This document shows positions 28,958-48,367 of a stretch of 64,000 nucleotides of DNA, piece by piece. The first letter of the stretch is position 1, and every line of letters starts with the position of its first letter. The notes under the pieces were generated by a model. It had not been told where the DNA came from and did not search any database. It saw nothing but the letters and a program-made list of their open reading frames with translations. Position numbers and translations under genes: made by a program. The stretch covers positions 1 through 64,000 of the forward strand of contig JAGHRS010000019.1 in assembly GCA_018066285.1 (NCBI GenBank), read 5' to 3'. This DNA comes from Candidatus Treponema caballi (GTDB taxonomy: Bacteria > Spirochaetota > Spirochaetia > Treponematales > Treponemataceae).

Positions 28958-28965
28958 ATCAGATT

Positions 28966-29037
28966 GGTTCCTTCGAATATCGGCTAGTTCGTGGCCCTCT
29001 CAAGGCTAAAAGATGGGTTCGATTCCCATAGGAACCG
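28966..29037 (+). tRNA. tRNA-Glu (CTC)
   Basis: Acceptor GGTTCCT pairs with AGGAACC. D-stem GAAT/GTTC holds loop ATCGGCTA. Anticodon stem TGGCC/GGCTA has loop CTCTCAA, anticodon CTC (reads GAG). CCA not encoded. It depends on read-through of the hairpin after tRNA-Gln or on an unseen promoter. Confidence 0.85.
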
Positions 29038-29045
29038 TTTAACGA

Positions 29046-29130: not shown

Positions 29131-29150
29131 GTTCCTATGGGAATCGACCC
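29131..29150. repeat. Inverted copy of the tRNA-Glu 3' end
   Basis: GTTCCTATGGGAATCGA (29131-29147) is the exact reverse complement of the T-arm/acceptor end of tRNA-Glu. It is followed by CCCCC, four bases and TGAGCGC, a pattern shared with the block after tRNA-Arg. It looks like a truncated member of the tRNA-linked repeat family. Confidence 0.7.
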
Positions 29151-45608: not shown

Positions 45609-45681
45609 CGGGATGTAGCGCAGCTGGTAGCGCGTCTGGTTTGGGACCAGAATGTCGCAGGTTCAAATCCTGTCATCCCGA
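45609..45681 (+). tRNA. tRNA-Pro (TGG)
   Basis: Acceptor CGGGATG pairs with CATCCCG; anticodon stem TCTGG/CCAGA with loop TTTGGGA, anticodon TGG. T-arm contains GGTTCAAATCC. Reads CCN proline codons. CCA is not encoded. Confidence 0.93.
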
Positions 45682-45683
45682 CA

Positions 45684-45719
45684 AGGACCTTTTCGTGAAA
45701 GCGGAAAGGTCTTTTTTTT
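45684..45719 (+). terminator. Terminator of tRNA-Pro
   Basis: GACCTTT pairs with AAAGGTC around CGTGAAAGCGG-type loop, followed by T8. Confidence 0.75.
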
Positions 45720-45746
45720 GTCCTGTCAGTATTACTAATGCCGCAG

Positions 45747-45829
45747 CAGGATTTGAACCGAGCGAAAACGCGAGCAGTGCGGAGCGTTTTCACGACGGCG
45801 GGTCCGGAGGACCAAATCCTGTCATCCCG
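45747..45829. repeat. tRNA-linked GC-rich hairpin element after tRNA-Pro
   Basis: The left end CAGGATTTGAACC (45747-45759) is the reverse complement of the tRNA-Pro T-arm; the right end CAAATCCTGTCATCCCG (45813-45829) is a direct copy of the tRNA 3' end. Outer arms CAGGATTTG/CAAATCCTG pair. Inside are two hairpins: GAAAACGC/GCGTTTTC and GGTCC/GGACC. The loop of the first holds GAGCAGTGCGGA, a motif shared with other GC-rich blocks here. Confidence 0.8.
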
Positions 45830-45830
45830 G

Positions 45831-46249
45831 AGGTGAGGCTTTTAAAATGAAGAAGACACGAAGCCTTTCCGCTTTATCAAAATCTGTCTTTCTCCCTGTC
45901 TTTCTTACGCGTTCGCGCGGAGAAACGTGTCTTTCCGCTTTACTTTCCGCAAGGGATTGGAGCACGCACGGCTGACTTTGGCAGACGTGCTCCACCGGAG
46001 CACGCTATGAGCGGGCGAGGAGGATGAGCGTGAGCGAAGTGCGGAAAGCCCGGTGACGGCGCGGAGCGGCGTCATGCGGCCAAAAATGCATGAAAAAATC
46101 TTTTCTTTCTTTTTTCCCTATAACCGTAAATTCTTTAATTACATAAAAATTGTTGTCAGATATAATGAGTACGATTTAATGTGGTGGGGAATACGCAGGT
46201 AAAAAGTCCAAAAAAAAAGAGCACAAAACTTTTTTTATGAGGATGTGAT
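45831..46249. repeat. Gene-free region with GC-rich repeat island
   Basis: No gene is supported. It holds three copies of CTTTCCGC (about 45865, 45931, 45944; the first two extend to CTTTCCGCTTTA), an inverted pair AGACACG/CGTGTCT, a hairpin GGAGCACG/CGTGCTCC (45959-45993) with a second GGAGCACG at 45997, and GAGCGAAGTGCGGAAAGC (46032-46049), related to the cores of the tRNA-linked elements. The final ~160 bp are AT-rich, with a TATAAT box near 46160 as probable promoter of the HD-GYP gene. Confidence 0.6.
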
Positions 46250-47744: not shown

Positions 47745-47818
47745 GGGATCATAGCTCATCTGGATAGAGCAACTGCCTTCTAAGCAGTAGGTAGGGGGTT
47801 CGAGTCCCTCTGGTCCCA
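47745..47818 (+). tRNA. tRNA-Arg (TCT)
   Basis: Acceptor GGGATCA pairs with TGGTCCC; anticodon stem ACTGC/GCAGT, loop CTTCTAA, anticodon TCT (reads AGA). T-arm GGGGGTTCGAGTCCC. No distinct promoter was seen; it may be transcribed by read-through from tRNA-Val. Confidence 0.92.
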
Positions 47819-47822
47819 TTAT

Positions 47823-47854
47823 TCAAAAGCAGTCCAAAGCGGGCTGCTTTTTTT
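47823..47854 (+). terminator. Terminator of tRNA-Arg
   Basis: AAAGCAGTCC pairs with GGGCTGCTTT (one T-G pair) followed by a T-run. An exact copy occurs 200 bp downstream. Confidence 0.85.
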
Positions 47855-47882
47855 TATTACAGGAAAACTTATTATAGCAGAT

Positions 47883-48054
47883 GGACTCGAACCCCCGGCG
47901 TGAGCGCCGAGCAGGTGCGAGGAAGAGCGCGCAGGACGCGCGCGGCAGCGAACAGAGGCGGGGTGGAGGACGCATACAGGAAGTATGCGTCCGTAACCTT
48001 CGAGTCCCTCTGGTCCCATTATTCAAAAGCAGTCCAAAGCGGGCTGCTTTTTTT
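47883..48054. repeat. tRNA-linked GC-rich hairpin element after tRNA-Arg, with duplicated tRNA end and terminator
   Basis: The left end GGACTCGAACCCCC (47883-47896) is the exact reverse complement of the tRNA-Arg T-arm. From 47999 the sequence repeats 47799-47854 exactly (56 bp, offset 200 bp), covering the tRNA 3' end and the whole terminator. GGACTCGAA pairs with TTCGAGTCC as outer stem. Three inner hairpins: GGCG/CGCC, GCGCG/CGCGC, and GGACGCATAC/GTATGCGTCC (10 bp). It holds GAGCAGGTGCGAGG. No gene is supported inside. Confidence 0.85.
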
Positions 48055-48059
48055 ACGTC

Positions 48060-48088
48060 TTGCGCCTTATCCTGCCTTTTCTTATACT
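48060..48088 (+). promoter_or_regulatory. Leaderless promoter of the ACT-domain gene
   Basis: TTGCGC, exactly 17 bp, TATACT, then 6 nt to ATG 48095. It starts directly after the duplicated terminator. Confidence 0.6.
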
Positions 48089-48094
48089 GTAATC

Positions 48095-48367
48095 ATGAAT
48101 AACGCGATAATTACTGTGGTCGGCTCAGACCAGGTCGGCATCATTGCAAAGGTGAGTGCCTTCCTTGCAGAAAAGAAGATAAACATTGCTGACATCAGTC
48201 AGACAATTCTTTCAGGCAACTTTGTCATGATGATGATGGTTGATATGTCAGGTTCTGAACTTGCAATGGATGAACTCAGGTCAAGTCTTGATGAACTTGG
48301 TAATTCCATGGGTGTTGATATAAACGTCATGCACGAACGTGTGTTCAGTGCAATGCATCGTGTCTGA
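48095..48367 (+). CDS. ACT domain-containing protein (UPF0237 type)
   Basis: Codes for 90 residues: a single ACT domain (IITVVGSDQVGIIAKVSAFL, INIADISQTILSGNFVMMMMVD). ATG 48095 is set by the promoter 6 nt upstream; longer in-frame readings run into the repeat element. The family is regularly paired with UPF0210, as here (15 bp apart), and probably senses an amino acid or similar ligand. Confidence 0.88.
   Translation: MNNAIITVVGSDQVGIIAKVSAFLAEKKINIADISQTILSGNFVMMMMVDMSGSELAMDELRSSLDELGNSMGVDINVMHERVFSAMHRV

Follow-up and report, generated by a model that had tools for sequence, protein, structure and literature searches.

A gene-less and apparently mobile repeat family 3' of bacterial tRNA genes whose conserved shape points to folded single-stranded DNA

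The block that follows the tRNA-Arg(tct) gene in the 64,000-nt stretch of Candidatus Treponema caballi DNA analysed here (the window) is one copy of a widespread repeat family that carries no gene and lies 3' of tRNA and tmRNA genes. The family is apparently mobile and apparently undescribed so far: a description of such an element was not found in the open-access literature searched, and in an Rfam search the gathering score was reached by tRNAs only, with no family for the element. Furthermore, the pairing pattern of its core points to a shape that is conserved as folded single-stranded DNA, not as RNA.

In the window, the host tRNA-Arg(tct) gene is intact (47745-47818, plus strand; ARAGORN; Rfam RF00005, 66.6 bits) and is followed by its terminator (47825-47851). 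The segment running from the T-loop to the tRNA 3' end and through this intrinsic terminator (A and t; 47799-47854, plus strand) recurs with 100 % identity at 47999-48054, which bears out the 56-bp direct repeat with a 200-bp offset described in an earlier, sequence-only reading of this DNA. The inverted T-arm copy reported there (A'; 47883-47896, minus strand), a segment that is locus-specific in other copies, is likewise exact over 14 nt (GGACTCGAACCCCC) and reaches 95 % identity over 19 nt (47878-47896). On the right, the second copy of the tRNA 3' end (A; 47999-48018, plus strand) forms a closing stem with A' and is followed by the second terminator copy (48025-48051, plus strand); the proposed 9-bp closing stem was indeed found, with GGACTCGAA and TTCGAGTCC as its arms. 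Between the arms lies the core (47896-47998, plus strand), a three-way junction and a hairpin domain that score 101.9 bits with our covariance model R1. Covariation defines Domain 1 (47900-47953, plus strand) with the stems P2 (47900-47905/47948-47953), P3 (47907-47912/47917-47922, with tandem G.A) and P4 (47927-47933/47937-47943), and Domain 2 (47962-47998, plus strand) with P5 (47962-47964/47996-47998) and P6 (47968-47977/47983-47992). Thus, the 10-bp perfect hairpin of the earlier reading survives as P6, whereas its drawing of the inner hairpins gives way to the P2/P3/P4 junction with tandem G.A, plus P5/P6. Compared with shuffled sequences, the folding of the block gave z = -5.3 as RNA and z = -4.0 as DNA, and as the core recurs beside other tRNAs together with the 3' ends of those tRNAs, the structure in the window is far from chance. 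A GTG-started ORF of 155 aa (47900-48367) also extends from the core into the next gene; the start of that gene is more likely the ATG near 48096, so an annotation stretched into the element would be wrong.

A second element (45747-45829, plus strand) lies 3' of tRNA-Pro(tgg) (45609-45682), with A' at 45747-45759 and A at 45813-45829. It is a short-core variant of about 55 nt, versus 103 nt, with the same A'/A layout (45683-45840 of the window). Its hairpin holds the motif GCGAGCAGTGCG, which was also seen in variants with a long P3 beside tRNA-Gly (L023), tRNA-Asn (L086) and tRNA-Met (L095). Downstream of tRNA-Glu(ctc) (28965-29038), a 17-nt inverted copy of the tRNA 3' end (29131-29147, minus strand) probably represents a decayed element, its core being degenerate or unrecognisable and a right copy A not being found. 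Across the whole genome, an element or remnant accompanies about 11 of the 43 tRNA genes, and at about 32 of them both A' and core are absent.

A blastn search with the window block gave matches in 18 of 40 relatives (14 of 32 genera), some of which covered the tRNA end only; a tRNA or tmRNA gene lay near the core in 19 of 20 fetched stretches, the remaining one being a contig edge. Model R1, built from the core alone with the arms excluded, matched 181 of 294 genomes of the host order (58 of 83 genera), further members of the spirochaete phylum and, beyond it, Deltaproteobacteria MAGs (14 of 297 genomes of that phylum). The search for further copies beside tRNAs that the earlier reading had called for therefore yielded hundreds, a lower bound since the large surveys scored no more than 11-13 candidates in each genome, and those examined adjoin tRNA or tmRNA genes, which supports its suggestion of a mobile or duplicating element aimed at tRNA 3' ends. 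With the core-only model, a tRNA or tmRNA lay within about 500 nt of 80 of 85 copies, and 79 of these 80 were on the same strand as the tRNA, with the tRNA on their 5' side. A spacing of 18-82 nt separates the tRNA end from the first copy, beyond which any further tandem copies are found. The sole inverted case among the 80 is an A'-core-A block beside a tRNA-Leu (L016, 905-1060). Three other cores (L047, L219 and L452) have A'/A-like or near-A'/A arms with no tRNA detected upstream in the fetched stretch; possibly these are tRNA pseudogenes or moved fragments.

On either side of each element stands a copy of the 3' end of its own tRNA, inverted on the left (A') and direct on the right (A). 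For the right copy A, the match to its own tRNA had a median length of 18 nt (C56 to base 73), and that to other tRNAs a mean of 5.6 nt; for A', the respective values were 12 and 6.1 nt. As both arms copy the end of the host tRNA, the closing stem follows the host: it measured at least 8 bp in 49 of 61 copies, compared with 10 % when arms were swapped between tRNA kinds. The tRNA genes of the second phylum include CCA, and there A typically measures 21 nt and has CCA as its last bases. Copying from mature tRNA was rejected, as the spirochaete copies are without the CCA that is added post-transcriptionally. The join lies within the T-loop, most commonly between positions 55 and 56. Many right junctions start at C56 or R57, and since some lie at T54 or R57, the cut site is not confined to a single base. 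Beyond the tRNA, the match was shorter than 10 nt in 23 of 44 copies, which thus combine an identical A with unrelated flanking terminators.

As one genome per species was available, the evidence for mobility is comparative. At L051, a perfect 67-bp direct repeat flanks a 114-nt insert consisting of A' and core, which has the appearance of a young insertion. The orthologous tRNA-Ser(cga) locus holds a short spacer and no element in about a dozen related genomes. Four others have a truncated unit there, standing alone in one genome and preceded by one, one and three full units in the remaining three; where there are three, the spacer of the tRNA-proximal unit differs from the others. Arrays reach 5 units in G480, and successive units of a tRNA-Asn array have differing terminators. 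Such changes in array length could also stem from ordinary unequal recombination. In a genome of the same genus (G003), the tRNA-Arg(tct) site is empty and the tRNA-Val(tac) site is occupied, while the window's genome has no element at tRNA-Val(tac). Furthermore, the core in the window is closest to a tRNA-Glu copy of another genus (84 % identity), and its identity with the compared copies of its own genome is at most 69 %. At L448 (G773:C24), two copies lie 2.5 kb apart, each after a 3' piece of tRNA-Leu and with peptidase-like ORFs between them; this locus was rejected as a cargo-bearing version, because it resembles a segmental duplication that took in part of a tRNA-Leu.

In the core of about 103 nt, a conserved three-way junction (P2, P3, P4) precedes a hairpin domain (P5, P6). 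Across 85 copies, 705 double-change cells were counted versus a shuffle mean of 216, in an alignment that was fitted to the model and with which an independent MAFFT alignment (A2) agrees; when the partner was slid by one column, covariation fell from a score of 0.61 to about 0.06. The covariance modelling suggested earlier thus revealed a strongly conserved and covarying fold, unlike what a decayed scar would leave. The core pairs comprised 2223 Watson-Crick, 25 G-T, 19 A-C and 376 G.A pairs, the latter mostly at fixed tandem sites, whereas in 295 tRNAs of these loci the acceptor and T stems together had 2010 Watson-Crick, 167 G-T and 27 A-C pairs. A structural RNA should tolerate G-U far more than A-C, which the core does not, suggesting that selection acts on folded DNA. 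Together, the near absence of G-T and the fixed tandem G.A point to folded single-stranded DNA and not to RNA. The fixed G.A pairs would be C/T mismatches on the opposite strand, so the tRNA-sense strand is presumably the folded one.

Which enzyme might act on such a fold was approached through co-occurrence. No gene, and hence no integrase, is encoded within the insert of about 114-200 bp. The Y1 transposase PF01797 occurs in 15 of 40 relatives and is absent from the carriers G001, G009, G011, G030 and G039; owing to this misfitting distribution, a REP/RAYT (TnpA-REP) system was rejected. The integron integrase TIGR02249 gave no match at E<=1e-20 in the window's genome or in the carriers G111 and G172, and is present in non-carriers such as G020, G040, G065 and G081. 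Reverse transcriptase PF00078 was absent from the carriers G030, G037, G039, G055, G070, G075, G111, G241 and G286, and an element driven by it (retron, group II or retrotransposon) was rejected for this lack of co-occurrence. At L382 (G031:C49), a 394-aa tyrosine recombinase (532-1716) ends 82 nt upstream of an element-bearing tRNA-Asp. It has an extra N-terminal region of about 110 aa without Pfam match, and its family, frequent in family f5, resembles integron integrases minus their extra segment. A survey of the Treponematales-type tyrosine recombinase (alignment A4) across the 294 genomes, counted by hand, placed it in 38 of 72 f5 carriers and in 14 f5 genomes lacking the element; of about 75 carriers from the window's own family, only 2 have it. 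Being rare in the latter family and present in f5 non-carriers, it is not an obligate partner. Searches of phages, plasmids and viral contigs revealed no element, the listed viral pattern matches being chance by the covariance model.

To account for these observations, we lean modestly towards a non-coding mobile cassette of about 180-200 nt, with the unit [A - terminator - A' - core], that moves by single-strand exchange at the tRNA T-loop. The tRNA-sense strand would fold as single-stranded DNA, and in a folded circle [A-t-A'-core] the A'/A stem would reproduce the target tRNA gene's 3' end in double-stranded form. A putative recombinase supplied in trans might then exchange single strands at the T-loop, similar to attC and CTX-phi, followed by replication. 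Insertion of such a circle would give tRNA(1-55)-A-t-A'-core-A-t, which matches the observed order and would leave the tRNA functional, and repeated insertions would build tandem arrays. Against this model, simple recombination does not explain the match of A' at each new tRNA, and no surveyed recombinase tightly co-occurs with the element.

The main rival, which we regard as unlikely although to be taken seriously, is a replicative, transposon-like insertion in which the core caps a cut T-loop and the direct repeat arises when the break is repaired from the sister chromosome. The core would bridge the two strands on one side of the break, linking the 3' end of the bottom strand (A') to the 5' end of the top strand (A), so that both arms are made afresh from each target. 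This directly explains why A' and A invariably carry the sequence of the tRNA that hosts them, and it likewise explains the long direct repeats with A' right after them in young copies and the spread to nearly all tRNA kinds. However, an enzyme for it was not found, and the copies with identical A next to unrelated terminators (23 of 44), as well as the tandem arrays, are better explained by cassettes. Improbable, in our judgement, is a stationary tandem duplication that is expanded by homologous recombination, its A' kept complementary by quasi-palindrome correction, and that does not move between tRNAs. Unit-length changes in arrays fit it, as does the high mutual identity of neighbouring tRNA-Ser copies, but one core family occurs at many unrelated tRNAs and tmRNA in two phyla, the closest relative of the window core is the tRNA-Glu copy in another genus, and relatives have empty sites. 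A structured or regulatory RNA gene derived from tRNA 3' ends, the other option of the sequence-only reading, appears still less probable: its strong covariation, stable fold and nearly constant position beside transcribed RNA genes would suit such a gene, yet G-T is as scarce as A-C in the conserved stems, the element sits behind a terminator, no Rfam family matches at a usable score, and presence at the same tRNA varies between relatives. Finally, tRNA-targeting integrases usually leave a direct repeat of the tRNA 3' end, but a scar left at the attachment site by a prophage or genomic island since lost is a very improbable source, being contradicted by a core and fold conserved in hundreds of copies, by the unexpected inverted A', and by the lack of phage or plasmid matches.

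Returning to the cassette model, the closest parallels are folded single-strand recombination sites. The integron attC is such a site in cassette arrays, its structure being more conserved than its sequence (PMC3053210). Similar to integron cassettes, the element forms arrays of units joined at one boundary, with a folded strand, non-canonical stem bases and variable sequence. Unlike them, however, its unit holds no gene, its target is the tRNA T-loop and not attI, its stem arms are the host tRNA 3' end within a multibranched fold, and it is not tracked by an integron integrase. Its arms read NTYGAAC/GTTCRAN as opposed to RYYYAAC/GTTRRRY in integron core sites (PMC3053210), the T-loop GTTCRA differing from GTTRRRY at the fourth base, where C56 is not R. 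In CTX-phi, the attP(+) used by host XerCD is single-stranded DNA that folds so that its stem imitates a double-stranded site (PMC4792948), and the element might act alike; CTX-phi is, however, a phage with dif as its target, whereas the element is gene-less, targets many tRNA genes and has a locus-specific stem. REP elements are also short, non-coding palindromic repeats dispersed in trans through a folded single strand, yet the element adjoins tRNA genes and not general intergenic regions, and its multidomain fold is longer. With tRNA-targeting islands, ICEs and phage satellites it shares the tRNA 3' end copied at the right border and an intact tRNA. In contrast to these, it measures about 200 bp without integrase or other gene, has the inverted copy A', and belongs to a single core family that occupies tmRNA and nearly all kinds of tRNA. 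As some tested defining features did not hold, namely the core motif and integrase of integron cassettes, the transposase of REP elements and the encoded integrase of islands, we file the element under none of these; its mode of action most resembles that of a recombination cassette made of a folded single strand. More tentatively, and with somewhat less than even confidence, we hypothesize an integron-like platform in which tRNA and tmRNA genes serve as insertion sites for gene-less folded cassettes of single-stranded DNA, which would rewrite their arms for each tRNA and deliver a fresh working 3' end and terminator.

If true, a common class of bacterial repeats would have been overlooked, one that is gene-less, acts as folded single-stranded DNA and has nearly the whole tRNA set of a cell as landing sites. 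It would constitute a further natural case of folded-single-strand recombination besides integrons and CTX-phi and, with an arm copied from the target, might offer a simple setting for the origin of single-strand recombination sites. It would also account for the paired tRNA 3' ends found beside tRNA genes in spirochaete genomes.
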